DNA of 64,000 bases. Source: a bacterium MS4 (GTDB lineage Bacteria > Bacillota > Clostridia > Oscillospirales > Acutalibacteraceae). The position numbers were made by a program, and so were the translations under genes. A model generated the notes under the pieces. That model made no database searches. It saw only the letters and a list, made by a program, of their open reading frames with translations, and had not been told where the DNA came from. The DNA lies in contig CCFG01000008.1 in the NCBI GenBank assembly GCA_000752215.1, forward strand, positions 265,091 to 329,090, written 5' to 3'. Shown here in pieces: positions 19,534-32,794 of this stretch. Positions within the stretch are counted from its first letter, which is position 1. Each line of letters starts with the position of its first letter.

Positions 19534-19569
19534 AAAATGCCCCCGAAACACGTTGTTTCGGGGCATTTT
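19534..19569 (+). terminator. Strong stem-loop, likely terminator
   Basis: Sixteen-pair stem (AAAATGCCCC... with one bulged C) closed by a 3-base loop and ending in TTTT. It lies between the PTS operon and the broken recombinase and can act on both strands. Confidence 0.65.
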
Positions 19570-19680
19570 CGTGTCAAACGCATTCCAAAATCTATGGGGC
19601 AATATCCATACGGTTTTGGAACGGGTTATTCCATCGGGACGCTAACAATGTTCCGTTGTTTTTATGTCATCGGAGGAAAA

Positions 19681-20208
19681 GGCAAAAATTATATTTTTGG
19701 ATACGCAAGAGTATCCACGGAAGCACAGAACCTTGACCGTCAGCTTGATGCTTTGAAACGGTACGGGGTAGACTTTATCTATAACGAGAAAATGACCGGC
19801 CAGAATTGATGAAAATGCTGGATCGTATTGACAAGGGTGATACGATTGTGATCGAATCGTTATCACGTCTTGGCAGGAGCACAAAAGACCTGATTGAGTT
19901 GGTGGAGTTGTTTGAACGGAAAAAGGTGCATCTGGTTTCCCTAAAAGAGTCCATCGATACCAGTACGCCAACCGTGAAATTACTTTTTACTCTAATGAGT
20001 GCCCTGGCTCAATTTGAACGTGTGTCATCGCCGAACGAACAAAGGAAGGGCTCAAATCAGCCCGAGCCCGTGGCCGTATGAGCGAGAGGCCGAAAATTGA
20101 TGAGGGTAAAAACAGGCGGTGAAGCTTTACAACACAAAGCAGTATTCCGTCAAAGAGATTGAAGAGCTGACTGGGGTAAAGAAGGCGACGCTGTATCGAA
20201 ATTTATAA
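19681..20208 (+). pseudogene. Broken serine recombinase / resolvase
   Basis: Remains of a Tn3-type resolvase or invertase. Pieces in order: GYARVSTEAQNLDRQLDAL in the first frame to MTG near 19800; a small deletion, then PELMKMLDRIDKGDTIVIESLSRLGRSTKDLIELVEL in another frame to QFER near 20020; a third shift into VIAERTKEGLKSARARGR; then a last shift into the C-terminal HTH (YSVKEIEELTGVKKATLYRNL) ending at 20208. At least three frame changes, so it is not functional. It marks the left edge of the AT-rich polysaccharide island. Confidence 0.85.
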
Positions 20209-20411
20209 TGATGAGAGGGGAACGATTACGCAAGAAATAAAAATATCGGCAATTTGTTCTATGCAATAATATTTAAATACGTATTTGGAGTATAGAACAT
20301 GTTTAAATTTGGAGTACTTAATGTGCTTTACTTGATATTCATTCTAATTTAAGGTAAAATGATTTACATAAAATAAAAAGATATTTATATAAAGAGTGTA
20401 AGGAAATGTAT

Positions 20412-21200
20412 ATGGTAAAAAGATTGAAAACTCAGGCGTTCACTTTTTTTCATTACAGTGGATTGCTCCGCGAACTGGTTGTTCGGGACATTAAAGTACG
20501 CTATCGAAGGTCGTTTTTAGGCCTTCTATGGACAGTTTTGAACCCACTGCTAATGATGGCGGTCCAGACGATAGTCTTTTCTACTTTCTTTAAATCAAGT
20601 ATTGTAAATTTTCCGGTCTATTTACTTATCGGTAATATTGTCTTCTCAATGAATTCTGATTCCACTTCTCAGGCGCTGACATCCATTATTGGCAGTGCTG
20701 GGCTGATTAAAAAAGTGTATATTCCAAAATACTTATTTCCGCTGTCGAAAGTGCTGTCCTGCCTTGTAAATTTTGGCTTTTCGCTTATTGCTTTGATTAT
20801 TGTTATGCTTGTAACCAAGTCTCAGTTTCACTTTGAAATGATTCTCTCCTTTGTGCCGCTATTTTACCTGTTGCTTTTTTCAATCGGTCTGAGTTTAATC
20901 CTTTCTTCTATAACGGTTTATTTTCGTGATATTGCTCATTTGTACAGCGTTTTTATCACAGCGTGGATGTATTTGACACCAATCTTTTATCCTATGGATA
21001 TGTTACCACCGCAAATACAGGCTATTATAAATTGGAATCCGATGTATCAGTATATTAAATATTTTCGCTTGCTTATCATGGATGGAATTGTTCCTGCATG
21101 GCGGACGAATTTATTCTGTTTTGGACTCGGGGCAATTACGCTGGTAATAGGGGTCTATATGTTCCAAGAATTGCAGGATAAATTTATTTTACACATATGA
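20412..21200 (+). CDS. Polysaccharide ABC exporter permease (Wzm/TagG/RfbA type)
   Basis: A 262-residue ABC-2 type permease with about six membrane segments. LVVRDIKVRYRRSFLGLLWTVLNP near the start is the hallmark of this family, as is YLTPIFYPMDMLP near residue 195. It exports lipid-linked glycan or teichoic-type polymer with the next gene's ATPase. ATG at 20412 is preferred, 7 bases after AAGGA; the ATG at 20406 is too close. First gene of the AT-rich surface-glycan cluster. Confidence 0.9.
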   Translation: MVKRLKTQAFTFFHYSGLLRELVVRDIKVRYRRSFLGLLWTVLNPLLMMAVQTIVFSTFFKSSIVNFPVYLLIGNIVFSMNSDSTSQALTSIIGSAGLIKKVYIPKYLFPLSKVLSCLVNFGFSLIALIIVMLVTKSQFHFEMILSFVPLFYLLLFSIGLSLILSSITVYFRDIAHLYSVFITAWMYLTPIFYPMDMLPPQIQAIINWNPMYQYIKYFRLLIMDGIVPAWRTNLFCFGLGAITLVIGVYMFQELQDKFILHI

Positions 21201-21233
21201 AGATTAACGCTGATCCGCGAGAGGGGTTTGGGA

Positions 21234-22781
21234 TTGGAAGATTACAGAACAAAAAACTATTATATGATAGAGACTTTGAAAAACGAGATTCAAAAGTTCT
21301 CCGTTATCTCGTTTGACATTGATGATACCTTGCTCCTTTATGATGTGATGTATCCGAGTGATGTGATGAAGCTTATCGAGGACTATGTACAGCAGAACTG
21401 TAATATAGCGGGTTTTTCCTATATTTATTCTGAGATATTACAATCGATGCGGGCGCAACAGGCTGATCGGAAAGACGACGTATCCTATTCTGAGCTTTAT
21501 CAGCAGATCCAGGAAAAACTGGGTATTGATTGCAGAGAAATCGCGGAACATCAGTTGCGGCAGGTTCGGGCCCATACCTTTGCAAATCCCGTTATGAGAC
21601 AGATTTATGACTATGCAGTACAAGGCAAGAAGAAAATTTTTATAGTTGCCGATTCCATTTACTCCACAGAGTTCCTTTCAAATCTTATGCATGAAAAAGG
21701 AATTAATTCATTTGAGAGAATTTATTCATCCGGTGAAGTAGGTCTTTCTAAGGCAACCGGAAAATTGTATCATCACATTTTGAAATCAGAACAAATTGAT
21801 CCAAAAACATGGCTGCATATTGGGGATAATCGGCAGTCAGATTTTGATATTTTGAGACATACGGGTATTACCGCGTATTTTTACCAACCACTCCGGGATC
21901 GATATTATGCTGACAAAGCAAAGAATGAAGCACGCCTAAAAGAACAGGGGCAAGATATCACAATAGAAAAACCGGAAGAAAATACGCTTTCTTTCTCTAT
22001 GAAAAAAGCAAAAAAAATCAACGACTATTATACGGAAATTAGCTATCCAAACCCAGAGATCGCGGTTCATATAGAAAATGTCTCTATGATGTTTAACTTA
22101 AGCAGCGAAAAAGTTGACAGTATAAAAGAATACATCATTAAACTGATAAAACGGCAGTTAATGTTTCAGGAATTCTGGGCATTGAAGAATGTCAGCTTTG
22201 ATGTTCATAAAGGGGAAAAAGTCGGGCTCATCGGATTAAATGGCTCCGGGAAAAGCACTATGCTGAAAGTTGTTTCAGGCGTTTTGAAACCGACCGAAGG
22301 CTCTGTTAGCGTAAGTGGGAACATAGCGCCATTAATCGAACTTGGAGCAGGATTTGACTTTGATTTAACTGCAAAGGAAAACGTGTTTCTAAACGGAGCA
22401 ATCCTGGGCTATCCAAAAAGAGAAATGGAGAATCGTTATCACGATATTATTGAGTTTTCGGAATTGCAGGAATTCGAAGATGTTCCAATCAAGAATTACT
22501 CTTCAGGTATGGTTGCTCGATTAGGTTTTGCGATTGCAACCTGCCATGTACCGGATATTCTCATTATTGACGAGATTCTATCAGTCGGGGATTTTGAATT
22601 TCAAAAAAAATGCCATGCCAAGATGCGGGAATTAGCCGGAAAGGGCACGACTGTTCTGTTCGTATCTCATTCCGCCGGGGACATCATCGACATGTGCGAC
22701 AAGGCGGTATGGCTTGAGCATGGCTGTGTTGTGGATATGGGCGAAGCGGAATACATTGTCAATAATTATTTGAACCAATGA
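21234..22781 (+). CDS. HAD hydrolase domain fused to Wzt/TagH-type ABC ATPase
   Basis: A 515-residue fusion. Residues about 20-230 form a HAD-superfamily domain: SFDIDDTLL (Asp28 and Asp30 of the DxDxT motif), a later KATGKLYHHIL region and HIGDNRQSDFD. Residues about 275-515 form a polysaccharide-export ATPase: Walker A GLNGSGKST near 333, signature YSSGMVARLGF, Walker B ILIIDE near 442, then SVGDFEFQKKC typical of Wzt/TagH. No C-terminal glycan-binding domain follows. Ordinary Wzt proteins start directly with the ATPase, so the HAD fusion is unusual. TTG at 21234 is chosen, 7 bases after GAGGGG; the TTG at 21228 is too near. It follows its permease by 33 bases. Confidence 0.85.
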   Translation: MEDYRTKNYYMIETLKNEIQKFSVISFDIDDTLLLYDVMYPSDVMKLIEDYVQQNCNIAGFSYIYSEILQSMRAQQADRKDDVSYSELYQQIQEKLGIDCREIAEHQLRQVRAHTFANPVMRQIYDYAVQGKKKIFIVADSIYSTEFLSNLMHEKGINSFERIYSSGEVGLSKATGKLYHHILKSEQIDPKTWLHIGDNRQSDFDILRHTGITAYFYQPLRDRYYADKAKNEARLKEQGQDITIEKPEENTLSFSMKKAKKINDYYTEISYPNPEIAVHIENVSMMFNLSSEKVDSIKEYIIKLIKRQLMFQEFWALKNVSFDVHKGEKVGLIGLNGSGKSTMLKVVSGVLKPTEGSVSVSGNIAPLIELGAGFDFDLTAKENVFLNGAILGYPKREMENRYHDIIEFSELQEFEDVPIKNYSSGMVARLGFAIATCHVPDILIIDEILSVGDFEFQKKCHAKMRELAGKGTTVLFVSHSAGDIIDMCDKAVWLEHGCVVDMGEAEYIVNNYLNQ

Positions 22782-22822
22782 AATTATACGGCTATTTTAT
22801 GCCGTAAGGGAGGTCGAAAATT

Positions 22823-24184
22823 GTGCGGAATAAAATCAGATATTACGACAGTGTATTGCGGAAAAATAAGTGCATGGATTTTCATACCCCTGCGGAACGA
22901 ATGATTCAAGATTTTAATACCCATTCTGATAATAAATTTCTATACGAGACGACTGCATTTATGACTGCTCCGGTATTGGTCAGTTACGTAATATGGGTTT
23001 TGGACAGCGCAAGAAAAAAAGGGATCAGACGTCTTTATTTCCTCGCGCGGGATGGTTACATCATGTATCAAATCGCACTGACTTTGTGCAGAGCGTATCA
23101 TTTGAATATAGATTGCCGATATTTTTATTGTAGCCGATATGCATTGAGAATGCCTCTTTTTTTAATTGACAGGGAAGAAGCGTTGGATAAGGTTTGCATT
23201 AATGGATATTGTGTCACTGCGGAGATCGTATTGGATCGCGTTGGACTTGACAAGTGGGAAAAGGAACAAGTTTTTTCCGAACTGGGAATAGAAAGCAAAA
23301 AGCAAATTTTAAGTAAGGCTGGGTTAGCGGAATTACGGCAGCGTCTGGAGCATAGCGATACTTTTTTAAAACTGGCATTGAAAAGGTCAAACGAATCATA
23401 TTCCATGATATACAGCTATTTTCTGCAGGAAGGCTTTTTTGATTCCATCCACTTTGCAATTGTTGATAGCGGGTGGTCCGGCTCCATGCAAAGATCGATT
23501 AGGAGAATACTGGAATATGCCGGGAAAGAGGATATCCTTCAAGGCTTTTATTTCGGAATGTATGAAATGGGTAAACCGGAAGACGGCCAATATTACTGCT
23601 ATTATTTTTCCTCAAGCAAACATTATTTTCGTTCCATCAATTTCAACAATAATCTTTTTGAATGTCTTTGCAGCGCGAACCATGGTATGACAATCGGATA
23701 TGAGAAAAATAATGAAGGCCGAATTGTTCCGATCCTGAATTTATTTCATTTTAACCAAAATACGGAGTTGCAGTTAAAAGTACTTCAAAATTTTGCCGTT
23801 CGTTTTGTTGAAAACAATTCTGTGCTTTCTGAAAACAATATTTCTATGGTTCACTTCCTTTTGAAAAGCTTTATGGGGTACCCATGTCGCGCGGAAGCCG
23901 ATTTTTACGGCGGCATTTCTTTTTGTGATGATTCAACTGAAAAATACATGGTTCCTCTTGCCGACAGGCTCAGTATGGAGGATATTCGTCAACAATTAAT
24001 TTCTACAAAGGTTATTCGGAAATTTAAAATTAAAAAAGCAGCAAAAACTTATAAAGAATCGTTTTGGATTCAGGGAACATTGGCAAGGTACAAATATCCG
24101 TGCACAAAATTGCTAAATGTAAATTTTAAGTTATCGATTTTTATATACAGCTTTTTGAAATATTTAAAAATCGGCAAAATATGA
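22823..24184 (+). CDS. ARDGY-domain protein of polysaccharide cluster
   Basis: A 453-residue soluble protein that matches the C-terminal part of the 725-residue protein at 24333. Shared landmarks in order: FLARDGYIM near residue 73, YFYCSRYALRMPL near 103, VDSGWSGSMQRSI near 214, GFYFGMYE and then LFECLCSANHGM. It has no HAD domain of its own; the domain that would normally precede it is fused to the ABC ATPase just upstream. Related proteins (COG5610-like) occur in capsule and teichoic clusters without a proven reaction. GTG start at 22823 follows GGGAGG by 9 bases. AT-rich codon use like the rest of the island. Confidence 0.65.
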   Translation: MRNKIRYYDSVLRKNKCMDFHTPAERMIQDFNTHSDNKFLYETTAFMTAPVLVSYVIWVLDSARKKGIRRLYFLARDGYIMYQIALTLCRAYHLNIDCRYFYCSRYALRMPLFLIDREEALDKVCINGYCVTAEIVLDRVGLDKWEKEQVFSELGIESKKQILSKAGLAELRQRLEHSDTFLKLALKRSNESYSMIYSYFLQEGFFDSIHFAIVDSGWSGSMQRSIRRILEYAGKEDILQGFYFGMYEMGKPEDGQYYCYYFSSSKHYFRSINFNNNLFECLCSANHGMTIGYEKNNEGRIVPILNLFHFNQNTELQLKVLQNFAVRFVENNSVLSENNISMVHFLLKSFMGYPCRAEADFYGGISFCDDSTEKYMVPLADRLSMEDIRQQLISTKVIRKFKIKKAAKTYKESFWIQGTLARYKYPCTKLLNVNFKLSIFIYSFLKYLKIGKI

Positions 24185-24205
24185 ATAGCTGTGAGATGGT
24201 AAACA

Positions 24206-24290
24206 ATAAGCGATAAGCAATCGTTAGTTTCTGTAATTATTCCGGTTTACAATATAGAAAAACATGTAGAATGTGTTGAATATTGGTTAG
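24206..24290 (+). pseudogene. N-terminal remnant of a family 2 glycosyltransferase
   Basis: The frame reads ...SDKQSLVSVIIPVYNIEKHV, the unmistakable opening of GT2 enzymes, then loses similarity after about 20 codons. The codon where the start is expected is ATA (24206-24208), not ATG. The rest of the gene is gone, and the next gene starts at 24333. Evidence of deletion within the glycan cluster. Confidence 0.65.
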
Positions 24291-24332
24291 TGAAGAGAAC
24301 GATTTCTTTTGAATATTGGAAGGATGACAAGT

Positions 24333-26510
24333 ATGAACGAGAAGCACAATTTGGATGTTGCTTATGATAATGAATTGTCGGAGATTATTAATAAAATAAA
24401 AGATTCTTCCATAGTTTCTTTTGATATTTTTGACACTTTGGTTTTAAGAAATGTGCTCTACCCCAAAGATATTTTTAAGATTCTTGCACAGTATGTGAAG
24501 AAAAAATATCATGTCGATTGTTTTTACGAAATCCGTATCAACAATGAATTTCGCGCCCGTCAGGATACAGACCTTGAAGACATTACATTAGACGAAATCT
24601 ATACGGCGATAGCAAAATATGAAAAGTTAAATCTTGATCTAATTGATATTAAGAAAAAAGAGTTGGAGTTAGAAAAGAAATTCATTGTAGTTAATCCATT
24701 AATGAAAGCGGTTTATGACTATGCGCTGAACACTCATAAAACGATTTATATTATTTCAGATATGTATCTACCAACAAAGTTTGTAAAGGATGTATTAGCT
24801 GGGTTGGGATATAGCAAATATGAACAGCTTTTGATCTCCGGGGATATCAAAAGGACAAAAGCAACGAAAACGATGTATGAATATTTGCTGAAAGAAGTTC
24901 ATTTAGCTTCGGAAAAATGGATACATATCGGTGATAATATACATTCAGACGTTGAGAATCCCCGCAGCTTCGGAATCAAGGCAATCCATTATAAAGCTGT
25001 ACGCGAGCGGGCAAGATATATGGAAAACGAGCAAACACTGTCTATCTCAGCTTCCATTATGCGCGCTATACAATACAACCGCTTGTACTGTGGCTATTAT
25101 GATTTTTCTTATTGGCAAAGATTTGGAATGGAATACATTGCTCCTATTTATTATGGCCTTGCTGATTGGGTGGCAAGAATGAATCGAAACCACAATAATA
25201 TTGTTTTTTTGTCGCGCGACGGATACATTGTAAAACAGGTGTTTGATCTAATCAAACAAAAAAGGCATCTTGATAAGATAGAATCTATTTACCTTTATAC
25301 TTCACGGAAAGCCTATCAATTGCCTGCAATAATTCACATGGACAAATGTGAAGTTATTTTATCTCTTACTGCATGGAATGAACCCTTCGGTCATGTATAC
25401 ACGATCAAAGAATTATTTGAAAATGTCGGTTTGAATATAGAAGAATATCTTGATGTAATTAGACAATTCGGTTTTGAAGGACCAAAGGACAGGATTTATT
25501 TTAATACTTTGCACCAAGCTAAAAAATTAGTTGCATTTCTTTATGATGACGTCATGAAGGCATTAGGTGAAAAAGCATCTCTTGTGGAAGAATATTTGGA
25601 ACAAAGTGGAATTTTAAAATTTAAGAAGATCAATATTTTCGACATAGGCTGGCGCGGTAGTATTCAATATGCCATGTCTTTGTTTATTGAAAATCATAAT
25701 AAGAATAACGTGAAAAAAAATGATCTTTACGGTTATTACTTTGGAACGAATCAATATGTTTACCCACAAATTGTAGACAATACTTTTGGATATTATTTTG
25801 ACTGTTCAGTCCCCCCCGAACACAGCGGTTTCTGCCTTGATAATATTATGATGTTTGAATACATCTTTTCTTGTCCGCAGCCACAGCTCATTGGTTTCCA
25901 AAAAAGTGATGCCAAAATTCAGCCGCTGTTCCGTGATTTCATTGAAAACAAAGAATTTATCTGTCAGTTTCAGGAAAGTGCTATAGACATAATACAGGAA
26001 TTTCTAGCATTTGATGAATATATCTCCGGGATTTCTTCTGCCAGTTGTCTGGATCTTTACCGGCGTCTTGTGATGGACAAACGGTATGAAGACATGAAAG
26101 AATTTTATAATGTTTATAACTTTGTATCATTTAATACTGCAAACAAGCCATATGTCACAAAATACAGTCAGTTGGAAGTCAAGAAGCATGCACGGACAAT
26201 CTGGCAGAAAACAGCCGTTAATTTATGGAAATATGCTTACCTCATTGAAGATATCAATACACAACAGGAATATAATACTTTCCTTAAAAAGAATAGAATC
26301 ATCCCGAATCCAACTATGTTACCAGCTAAAAAGGGGCTTATTCATTTCATATGTAATTATGTTAAATTAGCACTACATGACAGACGCCAGCTTAAATATA
26401 TTATGAAACAAAAATTATCCAAACATCCTTTTTGGCTGAAACATTTTGGTAATTTATATCGTACGCTGCGAAACACAAAAAATTTTGTCTTTCATGAACC
26501 CAGAATATAA
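24333..26510 (+). CDS. HAD domain plus ARDGY-domain protein (COG5610-like)
   Basis: A 725-residue cytoplasmic protein. Residues about 20-230 are a HAD-like domain (SFDIFDTLVL, where the second Asp of DxDxT is Phe; HIGDNIHSDVE). Residues about 285-620 are the domain shared with the protein at 22823: FLSRDGYIV, YLYTSRKAYQLPAI, FDIGWRGSIQYAM, GYYFGTNQ, MFEYIFSCPQ. The last 100 residues are basic. Likely involved in assembling or modifying the exported glycan; the reaction is not known. ATG at 24333 has GGAAGG 9 bases upstream; the open frame begins 8 codons earlier at a TTG without a site. Confidence 0.7.
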   Translation: MNEKHNLDVAYDNELSEIINKIKDSSIVSFDIFDTLVLRNVLYPKDIFKILAQYVKKKYHVDCFYEIRINNEFRARQDTDLEDITLDEIYTAIAKYEKLNLDLIDIKKKELELEKKFIVVNPLMKAVYDYALNTHKTIYIISDMYLPTKFVKDVLAGLGYSKYEQLLISGDIKRTKATKTMYEYLLKEVHLASEKWIHIGDNIHSDVENPRSFGIKAIHYKAVRERARYMENEQTLSISASIMRAIQYNRLYCGYYDFSYWQRFGMEYIAPIYYGLADWVARMNRNHNNIVFLSRDGYIVKQVFDLIKQKRHLDKIESIYLYTSRKAYQLPAIIHMDKCEVILSLTAWNEPFGHVYTIKELFENVGLNIEEYLDVIRQFGFEGPKDRIYFNTLHQAKKLVAFLYDDVMKALGEKASLVEEYLEQSGILKFKKINIFDIGWRGSIQYAMSLFIENHNKNNVKKNDLYGYYFGTNQYVYPQIVDNTFGYYFDCSVPPEHSGFCLDNIMMFEYIFSCPQPQLIGFQKSDAKIQPLFRDFIENKEFICQFQESAIDIIQEFLAFDEYISGISSASCLDLYRRLVMDKRYEDMKEFYNVYNFVSFNTANKPYVTKYSQLEVKKHARTIWQKTAVNLWKYAYLIEDINTQQEYNTFLKKNRIIPNPTMLPAKKGLIHFICNYVKLALHDRRQLKYIMKQKLSKHPFWLKHFGNLYRTLRNTKNFVFHEPRI

Positions 26511-26580
26511 TGTGCTTTTTCGCTGATTTTTACTAAGAACTACAGACAAAACAGCATTCTAAATTGTTTATAATTAAAGG

Positions 26581-29196
26581 ATGTGGCCAGACATGAAATT
26601 ATTTCCTGAGAATATGCTTAAAACGTGTATTGGGTGCTCCTGCTGTGCAAATATTTGTCCGAATGATGCAATTCAGATGCAGCCTGATTCTTACGGATTT
26701 TCTAAGCCTATAATTGATTCTGCTTTATGTACATCTTGTGCCAAGTGCGTTTCGGCTTGCCCTATCCTACATCCAATCCGAAAAAACGCCTCTGAACCGT
26801 ACTGCTATGCCTGTATGGCGAACGATTCATTGCGTGCTGTAAGTTCAAGCGGGGGTGCATTTTCTGTCTTTTCCTTAGAAGTTCTTTCAAAGGGCGGTGT
26901 TGTCTGCGGCGCGGCGCTGGAATCGGACTTGCATGTCCGCCACATTTTCATCGAACGGCCTGAGCAACTCCATCTCCTACAAAAGAGCAAGTATATTCAG
27001 AGTGAAATTGGAACCACCTACAAACAAGCGAAAGACTATCTAAAGACAGGTAGACTGGTGTTGTTTACTGGTTGTCCTTGCCAAATTGCAGCCCTACAGA
27101 GCTATCTGGATGAAGATTATGCGAATCTCATTACGGTGGATCTGATGTGCCATGGCGTGTCATCCTACCAGATGCTCGTTGATTCTGTTAGTGAACAGAC
27201 ACCACTGGATTCTATCCGTTCTATTAGTTTTAGGAATAAGGAAAACGGCTGGAATTATAATGAAAAAATGAACTTATGGGCAGCAAGCAGCCAAATCATG
27301 AAATTAGACTGCGGTAATTTCGAAAAACAACTGGATGTTACCAACAATGCCTTTGAGAAGGGATTCCATTGCAATATTAGTTTGCGAGAGTCCTGTTATA
27401 ATTGTGTGTTTAGTGAGTATCCGCGTCAGGGAGATCTTACCATTGGTGACTTTTGGGGCATTGAACAGTATTCTGCAAAATTAACGGATAATCAAGGGAC
27501 GAGTTTAGTTTTACTAAATAATGAGAAAGGAATTGCTTTTTTTAGATCTATAGAAGATCAATTTATTCTATGCCAGCAAACCCCTCTTTCGGCCGTTTGC
27601 AACCGAATTAGTGCTAAAATTGATGAACATCCTGGACGGAAACGTTTTCTTGATTTATATCCTTACATTCCGTTCAATCAGGCAATTGATTGGGTTTTGC
27701 AGGGACAATTTGATATTGGCATCGTTGGGGTCTGGTATGTAAAGAATCATGGTTCTCAACTCACCTACTATGCTCTTTACCATCTGATAAAGGATCTCGG
27801 TTACCATCCACTTCTTATCAGCCAGCCAGAGAATTCCATCTGGAAAGCTGAATCGGATCACTGCCAATTTATGAATGCTCCCTACCATTCCTACGAAATG
27901 GCGCCTGTTTATTCTGACAAATCATCCATGAAGGTTCTCAACAGGCAATGTGATACTTTTTTACTCGGGTCGGATCAGTTTTGGAATCCATCTGTTTATC
28001 ACATTATTGGGGAATATTCCGCCATGGAATGGGTACATTCGAATAAACGTAAGATAGCTTATGCAGCTTCCTTTGCTCACGATGAGTTTATAGGCAGCCA
28101 AGATGAAAAGGACTGGATTGCTCATTTTATCAATCAATTCAATGACATATCGGTTCGTGAAAAGTCTGGAGTAGACTTGCTCAGGCGGGAATGCGGTAAA
28201 TACGCTGAATGGGTACTTGACCCCGTCTTTTTATGCGGTCGCAAATATTTTGACCAATTAGCCGAAAAGGGGATTAAGCGCGAGCCTAAAGGTAACTTTC
28301 TCTTTGCCTATATTCTAGACCCTAGTAAGGAAAAAGAAAAAGCTATTCAACAATGTTGTAAACAGTATGCATTAGAATACCGAATAGCTATCGATGGTTG
28401 TAATGATCCAGATGCTACCAAAAGCATCTGGTCACTTGAAGTTTTGAAAGAAGTTTATAACGAGGAATGGATCGCCCTGATTCGAGATAGTAGTTTGGTA
28501 ATAACAGATTCTTTCCATGGTATGTGTTTTGCAATTTTATTTCGTAAACCTTTTTTTGCTATTGTAAATACGGAACGTGGTGCAGGACGATTTACATCAA
28601 TTGCATCGCAATTTGGTTTGATGGAAAGACTTGTGAATTCAGCGGCACAAATACCAGAAAGGTTAGGGACCAACAATACAATTGATTACGAAGCTGTGTA
28701 TGCAAGCATTGAGCAGGAACGGATTCGCTCACTGAAATGGCTGTCAAGTGCCCTGCAAAAACCCGCAGGACGAAAAACAATTAGTACTTTTGACATTTTG
28801 GATGATCGTTGCGACAAACTAACTGAAAAACTGAATAGCCAGAAACTGGACATAGAGCGTTTGTCGGCGAAAGATCAATCCACTAACGAAAAATTTGATA
28901 TTATAAGTTGCTCAATTCGAAATGATTTGCAAAGGGAGTCCCTATTTTTACAACAGATTCAGGATGAAATTAAACTTAACGTTCAATCATATAATCTTAA
29001 ACAAAAAGAATTCGATGAGCAGATTGCTATATTGAAACAAAATATCATAAATTTATCCAGTTCACCTTCATACCGAATCGGGAGAATAATAACATGGTTT
29101 CCTCGCAAATTGCGCGGTTTTTTTCGCTGCATAAAAGAGAATGGTTTAATATATACTTATAGGCACTTAATTGAAAAAATTCGGAATGGATTATAA
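26581..29196 (+). CDS. Ferredoxin-FrhB/FdhB domain fused to polysaccharide pyruvyltransferase
   Basis: An 871-residue multidomain protein. Residues 10-60 hold two 4Fe-4S motifs (CIGCSCCANICP and CTSCAKCVSACP). Residues about 75-360 are the F420 hydrogenase/dehydrogenase beta-subunit family (SSGGAFSVFS, FTGCPCQIAAL, DLMCHGVSS, CYNCVFSEYPRQGDLTIGDF). Residues about 375-720 are a polysaccharide pyruvyltransferase (WYVKNHGSQLTYYAL, LLGSDQFWNP, SFHGMCFAILF). The tail (about 735-830) looks like a coiled coil. Such fusions occur in glycan clusters and probably add a pyruvyl ketal or a related redox-linked change. Start is ATG 26581 or ATG 26593; both are served by AAAGG at 26576. Confidence 0.82.
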   Translation: MWPDMKLFPENMLKTCIGCSCCANICPNDAIQMQPDSYGFSKPIIDSALCTSCAKCVSACPILHPIRKNASEPYCYACMANDSLRAVSSSGGAFSVFSLEVLSKGGVVCGAALESDLHVRHIFIERPEQLHLLQKSKYIQSEIGTTYKQAKDYLKTGRLVLFTGCPCQIAALQSYLDEDYANLITVDLMCHGVSSYQMLVDSVSEQTPLDSIRSISFRNKENGWNYNEKMNLWAASSQIMKLDCGNFEKQLDVTNNAFEKGFHCNISLRESCYNCVFSEYPRQGDLTIGDFWGIEQYSAKLTDNQGTSLVLLNNEKGIAFFRSIEDQFILCQQTPLSAVCNRISAKIDEHPGRKRFLDLYPYIPFNQAIDWVLQGQFDIGIVGVWYVKNHGSQLTYYALYHLIKDLGYHPLLISQPENSIWKAESDHCQFMNAPYHSYEMAPVYSDKSSMKVLNRQCDTFLLGSDQFWNPSVYHIIGEYSAMEWVHSNKRKIAYAASFAHDEFIGSQDEKDWIAHFINQFNDISVREKSGVDLLRRECGKYAEWVLDPVFLCGRKYFDQLAEKGIKREPKGNFLFAYILDPSKEKEKAIQQCCKQYALEYRIAIDGCNDPDATKSIWSLEVLKEVYNEEWIALIRDSSLVITDSFHGMCFAILFRKPFFAIVNTERGAGRFTSIASQFGLMERLVNSAAQIPERLGTNNTIDYEAVYASIEQERIRSLKWLSSALQKPAGRKTISTFDILDDRCDKLTEKLNSQKLDIERLSAKDQSTNEKFDIISCSIRNDLQRESLFLQQIQDEIKLNVQSYNLKQKEFDEQIAILKQNIINLSSSPSYRIGRIITWFPRKLRGFFRCIKENGLIYTYRHLIEKIRNGL

Positions 29197-29271
29197 TATA
29201 GATTTTTAATACAAATGTGAAGAAACTTACAAAAATGTGTCTTAATAATTTTTAATTGGGATGAATTATTC

Positions 29272-30483
29272 ATGATAAAGGTTCTGATTGTCGTCTCCTA
29301 TTTATCCGGTGGCGGAGCTGAGCACGTGGCGCGCAAAAATCTCGAATGTTTGCTGGACAATACGGATTTTCAGGTTGGAGTTCTGACATGCGACGCTGAG
29401 TCTGCAAAAAAATATACTATAGAATCCTATCTTCTGCAGGATTTTAAAAAACTTGACGGCAAACTCACCCAGGGCATAGCTGTGTTCGGATATCATTCGA
29501 ATTATTACATAGCTTTAAAATGTATGCGCCAATTTCGACCTGATATTATTCATATTCACGATTTTATACCGATGACCCCTAGTACTTTAAAAGCCATTCA
29601 TGAGTATAAGGCAGAAAGTGGCTGTAAGGTGGTTCTGACACACCATACCTATTCTTACATATGTACAAATGATTCTTTATACAACTACTCTTCGAATCAA
29701 CTATGTGAAGAGTGTATTGGTAAACTAGATACAACAATCATACGCAAAAAATGTAGCGGAAAACTAACGACCGCCTATGCGAAATACCTACAGAAAAAGT
29801 GCTTTACCTCTTATTGGAATGGATTGATAGATCTGCATATATCGCCAAGTGTATTCTTAAAACAGAAGTTGTTACAGGCAGATAAAAATCTTTCTGTACA
29901 AGTGGTTCACAATCCTTGTATTGATGAGGTGCTACCTGTTTCCAATCAAAAGAAGACGGATACAATTGTATATTTCGGGAGAATCAGCCGTGAAAAAAAT
30001 ATTGTTAATTTTGCGAGGCTTTTTGCAGAAATCCCAACAAATTATCAGTTATTAATTGTTGGCGATGGAAAGCTATCTTCTGAATTGGAGCAAATAATTT
30101 CGAAATCACAATCACAGAAAATTCGTTTTGTTCATCGATTTATGCAAACCAACGAGCTATTTAATACGATCTCCTCTGCAAAATATTTTATCTTACCATC
30201 TGTGTGGTACGAAAACAGCCCAGTATCAATTGTAGAAGCAATTAATTGGTCATTGATCCCTCTCGTATCTAACATCGGTGGAATGGAAGAGTTAGTACAA
30301 CTTTTTGGATTGGGGCAGACATTCGATCCAAAAGATTCAGGTGCGATTCAGTCTCTGATACAAAATTTGGACAACTTTGATTGTTTCAATAAACTGCAAT
30401 CTTCCCGTATTCAGCTTCAAAAATTCACTACTATAGCTTATTCGAAACAAATTTGTGACATTTATCATAGATTAATGATATAA
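29272..30483 (+). CDS. Glycosyltransferase, GT4 family
   Basis: A 403-residue GT-B fold glycosyltransferase. Visible features are the Gly-rich N-terminal GGGAEHVARKNL acceptor loop, RPDIIHIHDF near residue 90, VYFGRISREKN near 235 and the C-terminal EX7E-like region WYENSPVSIVEAINW near 320. It transfers a sugar from a nucleotide donor to the growing glycan on the cytoplasmic face. Last plus-strand gene of the island, ended by a shared terminator. Confidence 0.88.
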   Translation: MIKVLIVVSYLSGGGAEHVARKNLECLLDNTDFQVGVLTCDAESAKKYTIESYLLQDFKKLDGKLTQGIAVFGYHSNYYIALKCMRQFRPDIIHIHDFIPMTPSTLKAIHEYKAESGCKVVLTHHTYSYICTNDSLYNYSSNQLCEECIGKLDTTIIRKKCSGKLTTAYAKYLQKKCFTSYWNGLIDLHISPSVFLKQKLLQADKNLSVQVVHNPCIDEVLPVSNQKKTDTIVYFGRISREKNIVNFARLFAEIPTNYQLLIVGDGKLSSELEQIISKSQSQKIRFVHRFMQTNELFNTISSAKYFILPSVWYENSPVSIVEAINWSLIPLVSNIGGMEELVQLFGLGQTFDPKDSGAIQSLIQNLDNFDCFNKLQSSRIQLQKFTTIAYSKQICDIYHRLMI

Positions 30484-30487
30484 AATT

Positions 30488-30535
30488 AAAATTAAGGACA
30501 TAAATCTTGTTGGAATGATTTATGTCCTTAGTTTT
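30488..30535. terminator. Bidirectional terminator between converging genes
   Basis: Nineteen-base arms (left 30488-30506, right 30517-30535) with one mismatch and A/T tails on both sides. It serves the GT4 gene on plus and the GT2 gene on minus, overlapping the last codons of the latter. Confidence 0.85.
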
Positions 30536-31284
30536 CTATATTTTAAAAGTCCATTAATTGTATAATGGACAAAATAATACAAACTACTTATCGTATTCAA
30601 TTTGCAATACTTCCTATAAATTAACCATCTATTTTTCGCAGCGCTTAGTTTATTATAAGATCTTCCTTGTTGAGAGACGCGATATTTTACAAGAACCTGG
30701 TTACATCCGATTCCAGAATAACCGACCTTTAATAATTCGAGCCAATAGACAAAATCTTCATGAAAAAACTCGGATATCATTTTGTGATTTTTAGTCAAAT
30801 CCGAACGTAAGATAACTGATGAGCAACAGATATAATTTTCTTTTAAAAGGTCTTTATAAGCACATGAATCCCGTACGATATGAGGAAGCCCAACCTCTTT
30901 TCCTATGTCGTTTATATATGAATATGAGGAATAGCAAAAATCAAAATTGGTGTTTTGTAGAACAGCGATTTGCTGTTCTAATTTTCTTGGTTCCCAAGCG
31001 TCATCTCCATCCAATAAAGCAACATATTCTCCTTTGGCTTTTTCAAAGCCTATGTTGCGGCTTTGGGCAACCCCGAGATTTTTTCTATTTTTTATAATAC
31101 GAATGCGTTCATCTTTTTCCGCCAAGTCTTTTACTATTTCTAATGATTTATCAGTAGATTGGTCATCAATCACTAATATTTCTAAATTGCTATAAGACTG
31201 GTTAAGCGCAGACTGAATTGTCTGTCCTATCGTTTCAGAGCAATTATACACTGGTATAACAACCGAACATAATTTTCGTTCCAT
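30520..31284 (-). CDS. Glycosyltransferase, GT2 family
   Basis: A 254-residue GT-A enzyme: VVIPVYNCSETIGQTIQSAL at the start, EILVIDDQSTD, then AKGEYVALLDGDDAW with the DxD-type metal site near residue 95. Converges on the GT4 gene. Slightly short for the family but complete through the donor domain. It completes the glycan cluster, yet its opposite direction implies separate control. Confidence 0.88.
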   Translation of the reverse strand: MERKLCSVVIPVYNCSETIGQTIQSALNQSYSNLEILVIDDQSTDKSLEIVKDLAEKDERIRIIKNRKNLGVAQSRNIGFEKAKGEYVALLDGDDAWEPRKLEQQIAVLQNTNFDFCYSSYSYINDIGKEVGLPHIVRDSCAYKDLLKENYICCSSVILRSDLTKNHKMISEFFHEDFVYWLELLKVGYSGIGCNQVLVKYRVSQQGRSYNKLSAAKNRWLIYRKYCKLNTISSLYYFVHYTINGLLKYRKLRT

Positions 31285-31768
31285 TTCATTGCCTTTCTCT
31301 CACTCCATAGTTATGGTTTATGGACTTGGAGACTTTTATTGCACATATTATAACATAATCAAATGCCATTCGTACACTATTCAATTAAATAATAAGTTAT
31401 TGTAGGAGAAGTTATACAAAAGCCCAGGATTCCAGCCTCTTGCTATCGAATAGCGCCAGAATCCCTTGCTATTTCATTATTTCACCACAATGCAAAAACG
31501 TTCATTTAAGTTACAACCGTATGTACAGATAATTCGACATAATTTGCTAAAAAATACTATGCCAGATAAGGTGAAATAAGTTTTGCGAAGATAGAAAGTA
31601 TCCGAAACAGTCAGGAGCATCAGGGATTCGCAGCATGGACACTATGGCCAGAATTTCTTTTAGAATCTGATAGGAAGATGTTCGCGAAAAGGTCTTTCTT
31701 CCAGACCCGATTTTTTCTATCTTTCTATTGGTTTTCTCACACAGCGGGAAGTATTTTGTGTTCATGCT
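31285..31768. other. Gene-free AT-rich stretch
   Basis: About 480 bases without a supportable gene. A 72-codon open frame on minus (31547-31765) has no ribosome-binding site and no motif I recognise; it may be a fragment of a lost gene. A partial inverted repeat GGATTC...GAATCC lies at 31429-31465. Confidence 0.35.
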
Positions 31769-32794
31769 TCAGGTTGGCGGTTTTAATGGGCCACAGCTTT
31801 CGCGCTGGATATAATGAACGGGAAGTTTACGGCTGCAGGGAGGTACTTCACTGCCTTCTATTATACGAAGCAGCATATAAAGACATTCGGCAGCCATGTT
31901 TTCCATCGGCAGGAAAACGGTTGATAGAGAGGGGATGGCATATTCTTCCGTATCGCGGTCGCTGTTGCCTATCGAAACAATGCGGATATCGTTAGGAATG
32001 GAAACATGCTTTTCCCACAATGCGCGGAGCACGCCAAGTGCAATGACGTCAGAGCCGCAGAACAGGCCGTCGGGCAATTGATCGGGCTTTAAGCTGATCA
32101 AAGCATCAAAGCCGCCGGGGAGCGAGTTTTCGCAATAACACATAGCTGCCATTTCCATGCCCCGGCGGGCGGCGACCTCCTCAAATCCCTTGGTGCGAAG
32201 GGACATGCCGGAGTAGACCGGCTCACTGGTCAGGACGGAGACTCTTTGACAGCCGTTATCTGCCAGAGCCTGTGCGGCCTTTGCGCCCATGTCAAAGTCG
32301 TCGACATTAATGGTGGCATATTTTTCGCTGTGGCGGTTGTACAGCACGATAGGGACGGGAAGCTCGGTTTGCTCCAGAAACTCCTGATCGTTAGCAGAAG
32401 CATTACATACAATGGCCGCGTGGCATTCTGTGCGGCTTTGCAAAGCTTGTTCGAGACAAAGCTGTCCATTGGTGTAGGTGAACAGCGGCAGACGAATTGG
32501 ACGTTTGCAGCTGTTGATGCCCTGACGCAGGCCGCGTAGGAAGCGCACCATCATGCCCGCGCGGAAGTCATCGGCCCAGAATACAGCTACAACGAGCGAT
32601 TTCTCGCCGTCACTGCCACTGCGCAGTGTTCGTGCCGCAATACTTGGGCGGTAGGAAAGCTCCTGAGCAAGAGCAAGAACACGCTGCTGAGTTTCCGGCG
32701 TTATTTTGCGCTCATTCCCACGGCCGGCCAGCACGATGGAAACTGTGCTTGGAGAAAGCCCCAATTGTAAAGCCATTTCTTTGATAGTGGCCAT
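31769..32794 (-). CDS. LacI-family transcription regulator
   Basis: A 341-residue repressor: N-terminal HTH MATIKEMALQLGLSPSTVS with the hinge and DNA-contact region to about residue 60, then a periplasmic-binding-protein-like effector domain (VDDFDMGAKAAQAL, DGLFCGSDVIALGVLRAL). ATG at 32794 gives the standard family start; ten extra codons upstream are rejected. It is transcribed away from a palindrome at 32912 and a sugar-enzyme remnant, the likely former target. The effector is probably a sugar or its phosphate. Confidence 0.88.
   Translation of the reverse strand: MATIKEMALQLGLSPSTVSIVLAGRGNERKITPETQQRVLALAQELSYRPSIAARTLRSGSDGEKSLVVAVFWADDFRAGMMVRFLRGLRQGINSCKRPIRLPLFTYTNGQLCLEQALQSRTECHAAIVCNASANDQEFLEQTELPVPIVLYNRHSEKYATINVDDFDMGAKAAQALADNGCQRVSVLTSEPVYSGMSLRTKGFEEVAARRGMEMAAMCYCENSLPGGFDALISLKPDQLPDGLFCGSDVIALGVLRALWEKHVSIPNDIRIVSIGNSDRDTEEYAIPSLSTVFLPMENMAAECLYMLLRIIEGSEVPPCSRKLPVHYIQRESCGPLKPPT

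Follow-up and report, generated by a model that had tools for sequence, protein, structure and literature searches.

In a 64,000-nucleotide stretch of contig CCFG01000008.1 (assembly GCA_000752215.1; hereafter the window) from the Acutalibacteraceae bacterium MS4, we identified a gene that joins a HAD domain of the phosphoribose-phosphatase (PRP) family to a Wzt/TagH-type exporter ATPase. The HAD-ATPase fusion is genuine, its domain architecture is unusual, and it is likely to be rare. It is followed by a stand-alone glycan phosphoribosyltransferase (gPRT) of 453 amino acids and a bipartite PRP-gPRT protein of 733 residues. In solved enzymes, according to the available parts of four papers (PMC10299916, PMC12096443, PMC11231755, PMC11127046), the ARDGY part is a gPRT dependent on phosphoribosyl pyrophosphate (PRPP), and the PRP HAD removes the 5-phosphate from the newly added ribofuranose (Ribf). 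In the published order, the gPRT adds Ribf-5-phosphate (Ribf-5-P), the PRP dephosphorylates it, and elongation follows. Since its ARDGY and HAD domains match these solved gPRT and PRP domains, the window cluster looks like a locus for the assembly and export of a Ribf glycan. The fusion is thus a new domain architecture within a known kind of PRPP-dependent ribofuranose assembly and ABC export. That the exporter here carries tethered PRP-type chemistry or chain-end recognition, by which Ribf addition and export are coupled, has in our judgment an even chance of being correct.

Integrity and domains of the fusion protein

The original prediction, made from the letters of the window, had placed a complete HAD domain at the N-terminus of a Wzt/TagH-type ATPase, and this was borne out. 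Translation of 21234-22781 is stop-free from the HAD domain through the ATPase, and Pfam models matched both parts: HAD (PF00702) on residues 24-201 (E 1.7e-5; 25.8 bits, slightly under the cut-off of 26.4) and ABC_tran on residues 317-448 (E 1.3e-21). The linker (residues 236-275) contains zero in-frame stops, while the other two frames are both stopped there. Read by eye, the stretch GAGAGGGG lies 7 nucleotides upstream of TTG 21234, and for the in-frame ATG at 21999, ahead of the ATPase, the closest purine-rich stretch (GGAAGA, about 19 nucleotides off) falls outside the usual spacing. A ribosome-binding-like stretch thus precedes only the HAD start, which speaks against two separate genes. 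The genome search recovered the same frame, of 526 residues from stop to stop, in the same assembly and hence not as an independent check. Because the fusion rests on one assembly, two genes might have been joined by a sequencing or assembly error. This is very improbable given the open linker between stopped alternative frames, the lack of a ribosome-binding-like stretch close upstream of the ATPase, and a likeness to the PRP of the 733-residue protein that extends to residue 235.

Matches to solved PRPs rank ahead of those to other HADs in both sequence (phmmer) and fold (Foldseek), the fold part not being independent. The fused HAD matched Bcs3 CrpP with an E of 2.1e-8 (best stretch 67-214) and T. 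composti 7shg with an E of 1.4e-7 (residues 131-220). Its likeness to the HAD of the 733-residue protein is beyond chance, at 34% identity and an E of 4.7e-37 in a small local set or 8.9e-38 in the genome search. An AlphaFold2 model of residues 1-239, built on a seven-row alignment, reached a pLDDT of 88.1 and a pTM of 0.84, and the best eight Foldseek rows were all 7shg, 8a0m or 8a0c; this fold match is not fully independent, because the model alignment contained PRP relatives.

Motif residues were counted over 58 PRP rows, some of them closely related, after five rows judged to be generic HADs had been removed. D28, T32, K173, D203 and D140 (which follows motif II) stand at positions common to all 57 other rows, and D198 at a position matched in 56 of them. 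The fused domain therefore has the nucleophile Asp, the motif III Lys and the motif IV Asps of a PRP. It lacks both the aromatic residue at motif I +2, where D30 replaces a Phe found in 56 rows and a Tyr found in one, and the motif II Ser or Thr found in 57/57, replaced by A139. The Tyr that follows motif II in all 57 rows is, as aligned, an Ile. Given D30 and A139, we class the fused HAD as a divergent PRP-family domain and not as a proven PRP.

The original prediction had read the motif I letters correctly: the fused copy has DIDDT and its unfused counterpart DIFDT. Its view that DIDDT is intact and DIFDT degenerate did not stand, since the solved PRPs and 56 of the 57 rows have Phe at this position. 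DIFDT as the mark of a dead copy was likewise rejected: the solved PRPs carry it, and the available part of the Bcs3 paper describes only the first Asp of DxD as conserved in CrpP (PMC10299916). Judged by its letters, the unfused copy has the ordinary PRP motif and the fused copy is the exception.

The ATPase part is a TagH/Wzt-type nucleotide-binding domain (NBD) with an intact Walker A, and an ABC-2 permease gene (20406-21200, PF01061) adjoins it. The TagH model NF010066 matched it with an E of 9.5e-58 (195.6 of 320 bits, below the whole-protein cut-off), and its matches in the Protein Data Bank included TarH 6jbh (1.2e-56) and TagH 7dd0 (1.2e-54). A C-terminal carbohydrate-binding module (CBM) of the Wzt type was considered and rejected, as the protein ends at residue 515, NBD matches reach 512-514, and no room is left after the NBD. 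The viral profile phrog_293 (ABC transporter, profile length 1058) matches window positions 21897-22769, that is, residues 222-512, with an E of 5.1e-38; this match begins at the end of the HAD and runs through the linker.

Distribution and origin

We searched overlapping genome samples, and every count of matching genomes includes the genome of the window itself. With the HAD as query, matches were found in 27/200 and 38/398 genomes of the family (some of the latter judged by frame length only), 13/391 of the class and 7/398 of the phylum. The full-length query matched 51/291 class genomes at 1e-60 and 30/60 genomes of relatives at 1e-40, and among the matches listed for these 291 and 60 genomes, only the row of the window's own genome covers the HAD part; these listings scored 5 candidates per genome in the class sample and up to 25 in the relatives. 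The claim of the original prediction that no comparable HAD-Wzt/TagH fusion was known held in the sampled genomes: among 346 loci, less those of the own genome, 74 distinct frames matched the PRP profile and 164 matched the ATPase, with zero overlap, although several of the 74 are generic HADs and some loci cut frames at their ends. One frame among these loci combined gPRT and Wzm.

Wider searches gave a similar picture. A protein scan of the genome collection found no relative. Searched over the window and a set of loci, a HAD-to-Walker pattern hit nothing but the own copy. In the genome collection it matched at least 120 stretches, and neither the 120 listed nor 45 viral ones contained a HAD relative. 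A viral scan with the PRP alignment yielded six PRP relatives, one with the 733-residue protein yielded none, and one phage record matches the HAD at 27.9%. On plasmids, the HAD query matched 44 records. The whole fusion gave two records with long coverage among the matches listed, both from Leptolyngbya boryana, and one of the two is a tandem ABC ATPase without a HAD. No PRP- or HAD-fused Wzt was found in the titles and abstract openings of the open-licence literature, a scope outside which most subscription papers lie.

According to the original prediction, the HAD had moved onto the motor from the enzyme next door. This was not borne out: the 733-residue PRP-gPRT is still present, and in a tree of 64 gPRT rows (with many long-branch warnings) the 453-residue gPRT groups, with a support of 97/96, with nine other HAD-less gPRTs; one of these nine, from genome G627, begins at the end of a contig and might be truncated. 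Recent donation of a HAD by the neighbouring gPRT to the ATPase was therefore rejected. The nearest row outside the clade (locus L028) is bipartite, so an older loss of the HAD in the clade ancestor is possible.

In the own genome, only the fused HAD and the 733-residue protein match the HAD query (E up to 0.001), and the two are reciprocal best matches by score (353; next 257 and 310). It is possible that the fused HAD arose by duplication of this PRP, a sister relationship that the tree neither shows nor rejects (approximately unbiased test, p 0.388). The branch of the fused HAD is long, at 1.54 changes per column. A tree without generic HADs places it among PRPs with no firm position, and a first FastTree including five generic HADs put it on their side with a support of 0.983.

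G+C content in the six 2-kb segments of positions 20001-32000 is 0.333-0.396, versus 0.405-0.556 in the other 26. Upstream of the permease, at 19537-20081, lie two adjoining serine-resolvase fragments (PF00239) that differ in frame, likely a mobile-element remnant. The low G+C over 20-32 kb and the broken resolvase pieces are consistent with acquired DNA.

Neighbouring genes and related loci

The window features are collected in Table 1. The original prediction that the gene at 22823-24184 consists of the ARDGY domain alone proved correct, as the 453-residue protein aligns with the C-terminal part of the 733-residue protein (27%, E 8.6e-14). It has no Pfam or NCBIfam match; stand-alone gPRTs were scanned against Pfam for the window and locus L326, with no match in either. 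The 453-residue protein combines matches to CriT and 7shg with PRPP-site residues: it retains counterparts of CriT R679, D680, S707 and R708, has Asp at the position of E818 (as do 62/63 other rows) and Ala at that of S678 (as do 17/63). The 733-residue protein matches Bcs3 (6.2e-20) and 7shg (2e-13) by phmmer across both HAD and ARDGY, and alone combines PRP and gPRT in one polypeptide, which neither the fusion protein nor the 453-residue gPRT does.

Table 1. Features of the window, with positions counted from its first nucleotide, and loci of relatives sharing one gene order
Feature	Position or locus	Strand	Basis or remark
Wzm/TagG-type exporter permease, 264 aa	20406..21200	+	PF01061 E 9.5e-19; galactan Wzm model NF050109 E 5.9e-24, below cut-off
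Probable ribosome binding site GAGAGGGG of fusion gene	21219..21226	+	Read by eye; ahead of TTG 21234
PRP-like HAD + Wzt/TagH-type ATPase fusion gene	21234..22781	+	515 aa; alternative TTG start 21228
HAD (PRP-family) domain, ~residues 1-235	21234..21938	+	phmmer, AlphaFold2, Foldseek
HAD motif I DIDDT (D28-T32)	21315..21329	+	D30 at a position that is F/Y in 57/57 other PRP rows
HAD motif II region VADS	21645..21656	+	A139 at a position that is S/T in 57/57 other PRP rows
HAD motif III Lys K173	21750..21752	+	Conserved
HAD motif IV GDNRQSD (D198, D203)	21822..21842	+	Conserved
Linker, ~residues 236-275, charged	21939..22058	+	Open in frame; ~40 residues
Wzt/TagH-type nucleotide-binding domain, ~residues 276-515	22059..22781	+	Walker A GLNGSGKST; protein ends with NBD
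Stand-alone gPRT (ARDGY domain), 453 aa	22823..24184	+	phmmer Bcs3 9.2e-11, 7shg 2.8e-9
Bipartite PRP-gPRT, 733 aa from TTG / 725 from ATG 24333	24309..26510	+	DIFDT, SDMYLP; phmmer both domains
Ferredoxin + FrhB/FdhB + polysaccharide pyruvyl transferase protein, 871 aa	26581..29196	+	Pfam; ferredoxin of 4Fe-4S type
GT4-type glycosyltransferase, 403 aa	29272..30483	+	PF00534 E 2.3e-18
GT2-type glycosyltransferase, 254 aa	30520..31284	-	PF00535 E 8.3e-40; nearest model TuaG NF047683 E 3.3e-65, below cut-off
Loci with gPRT-Wzm-Wzt-PRP-gPRT order	L294, L295, L296, L298, L326, L327, L328, L330, L331, L332, L334, L336, L338, L339		PRP-gPRT split in L298; gPRT-Wzm fused in L332

The 453-residue gPRT as query matched 21/258 genomes of the family, the own genome included. 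From the 23 rows outside the own genome we kept 18 (E up to 6.3e-39) and dropped five: two loci of genus g47, a fragment of 102 residues, and two long frames (1066 and 1028 residues). Eleven of the 18 stand-alone gPRT loci carry gPRT, Wzm, Wzt and PRP-gPRT in a row and two carry them with intervening genes; three end at a contig end, and two have no Wzm-Wzt within the stretch examined. The same order occurs in genomes G441, G493 and G233, the PRP-gPRT of the last being split over two frames. The stand-alone gPRT of this module might act as a primer, add a second Ribf or serve as a terminator.

In genome G134 (L332, 6563-8995), one of the eleven, gPRT and the Wzm permease form a single 811-residue frame; it has no stop, and no start codon lies near the junction. 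Two separate fusions, in the window and in G134, thus link a Ribf enzyme or a relative of one to the exporter. Elsewhere, the PRP stands alone in g47, where a gPRT is followed by a PRP frame of 223-242 residues; PRP and gPRT also share frames of about 1035-1336 residues; and PRP without gPRT occurs at the N-terminus of frames of 913 residues in G627 (L282, 1647-4385) and 894 residues in G671 (L283, 2783-5464), each beside a stand-alone gPRT. PRP, gPRT and exporter parts are recombined modules. Close to its end, the 894-residue protein matches Capsule_synth (PF05159). In G529 (L290, 4553-6010), a 486-residue frame with a degenerate PRP-like match has DLKHT at motif I and lies about 3.7 kb from a normal PRP-gPRT.

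A candidate coupling of synthesis and export

We propose that the locus would build a beta-ribofuranose-containing glycan in the cytoplasm, to be exported by the Wzm-Wzt (TagGH-like) ABC transporter. The gPRTs would move Ribf-5-P from PRPP onto the end of the chain; its 5-phosphate would then be taken off by a PRP-type HAD phosphatase ahead of chain extension. A second, divergent PRP-type HAD on the exporter ATPase would act on or hold a Ribf-5-P end, the product of the stand-alone gPRT next door, at the transporter mouth, and Ribf addition, dephosphorylation and export would take place in one complex. We infer that the fused HAD is catalytic and that its substrate is Ribf-5-P; the glycan would contain Ribf, and HAD and motor would be coupled. 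The likely substrate is the 5-phosphate of a terminal PRPP-derived Ribf-5-P, given the match of the ARDGY partner to solved transferases that depend on PRPP. The original prediction of a phosphatase coupled to glycan export is retained insofar as a phosphatase-family domain sits on the motor in a glycan cluster, while its generic phosphate cap is refined to this terminal 5-phosphate.

A more specific form of this reading is a motor with a built-in chain-end enzyme, in which the HAD, by dephosphorylating or binding the Ribf-5-P end, gates or times export powered by ATP. We hold this specific form tentatively, as a possibility short of a probability. In favor of the broader coupling reading, sequence and predicted fold identify the PRP and gPRT domains, the two-step reaction is published, the catalytic core has been kept despite the long branch, the gPRT-Wzm-Wzt-PRP-gPRT linkage recurs, and the gPRT-Wzm protein of G134 is a separate fusion of a Ribf enzyme with an exporter. 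Several observations weigh against the broader reading. The motif II Ser/Thr, a phosphate ligand in HAD enzymes, is Ala in the fused HAD and the (S/T)DMY signature that follows is gone, changes that may have weakened or abolished activity on Ribf-5-P. A normal PRP is present in the 733-residue protein, hence the need for a fused one is not obvious. Only one genome showed the fusion, the G134 fusion too rests on one assembly, and a single-sequence structure prediction of the full-length fusion (pLDDT 35) gave no usable domain arrangement. The window order (Wzm, fused Wzt, gPRT, PRP-gPRT) is unlike the module of relatives, and its Wzt reaches 63% identity to other Wzts among the matches listed, compared with 45% (G441), 46% (G002), 47% (G009) and 49% (G233) to the in-row module Wzts that have rows. 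The locus accordingly looks like a hybrid, and the module argument applies to it by analogy only.

The intact core favors an enzyme, while the lost motif II residue makes altered specificity or a binding role possible. The fused HAD might thus be an active phosphatase whose substrate is something else, such as another sugar phosphate or a lipid-linked phosphomonoester of the same pathway. Its DIDDT is the classical HAD phosphatase form, unlike all 57 other PRP rows; further signature positions are altered on a long branch while the core is kept, and the first FastTree grouped it with the five generic HADs. Yet its best sequence and fold matches are PRPs and its top-scoring partner is the PRP of the same cluster, and we regard this explanation as rather unlikely. 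Unlikely too is a reader instead of an enzyme, which would bind a Ribf-5-P or Ribf end and license export as the C-terminal CBM does in O9a-type Wzt. Such a role would suit the Ala at motif II and the lost (S/T)DMY (57/57 other rows differ at the motif II and Tyr positions), an ATPase that ends with its NBD and has no CBM, the normal PRP already present in the 733-residue protein, and the CBM-coupled export described for related systems in the available part of PMC11127046. A pure binding domain, however, would be free to lose D28, K173 and D198/D203, which are kept, and D30 supplies the classical DxD pair. The fusion could finally be incidental, a duplicated PRP joined to wzt during horizontal assembly of the cluster and tolerated without function. 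Its occurrence in a single genome, the low G+C over 20-32 kb with broken resolvase pieces upstream, and six same-genus genomes listed without a match at 1e-6 would fit such an accident; the frame shows no sign of decay, being open with intact core motifs despite high divergence, and the second enzyme-exporter fusion, in G134, also argues against it, which leaves it improbable.

How ABC-transporter-dependent glycan pathways couple synthesis with export is understood only in part. A phosphatase-family chain-end domain fused to the motor, together with the gPRT-permease fusion of a relative, suggests that synthesis and export share a physical complex, and the window fusion is a single polypeptide on which such coupling could be measured. 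Our results further assign PRPP-dependent ribofuranose assembly to the genome family of the window, where it frequently comes with an export module of four genes. If the gated-motor reading is true, gating by an N-terminal PRP-type HAD would be a coupling route distinct from the C-terminal CBM, and gPRT, PRP-gPRT, Wzm and Wzt would form one complex in these bacteria.

Among known systems, the bipartite PRP-gPRT ribofuranosyltransferases (T. composti 7shg; K. pneumoniae O4 and O7) have the same HAD and ARDGY families and imply the same two-step chemistry from PRPP. The PRP-gPRT of K. pneumoniae O4 is described in one locus with wzm and wzt (available part of PMC11231755). These proteins hold PRP and gPRT in one polypeptide with Wzt separate, whereas the window carries a PRP-type HAD on the ATPase, with motif I +2 and motif II changed relative to the bipartite PRPs. 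H. influenzae type b Bcs3 (CroT-CrpP-CriT) and C. jejuni Cj1432 likewise have a PRP module inside a multi-enzyme protein, but one joined, in the available parts of the papers, to transferases and not to an exporter (PMC10299916, PMC12096443); the Bcs3 authors speculate there on coupling of synthesis to ABC export (PMC10299916). As presented in the available part of PMC11127046, C. youngae ORF15 also carries a PRP on a partner other than a gPRT, a polyprenyl-phosphoribose synthase; it differs in that this partner is a UbiA-type membrane protein and no ATPase is involved. The TagH/TarH and Wzt ATPases (7dd0, 6jbh, 6amx) share the NBD (approximately fusion residues 276-515), and their chains of 242-280 residues align to the ATPase part only and have no HAD. 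E. coli O9a-type Wzt resembles the fusion in having an extra domain tied to the chain end (PMC11127046, same part), which is a C-terminal CBM there and an N-terminal HAD, with no CBM, in the window.

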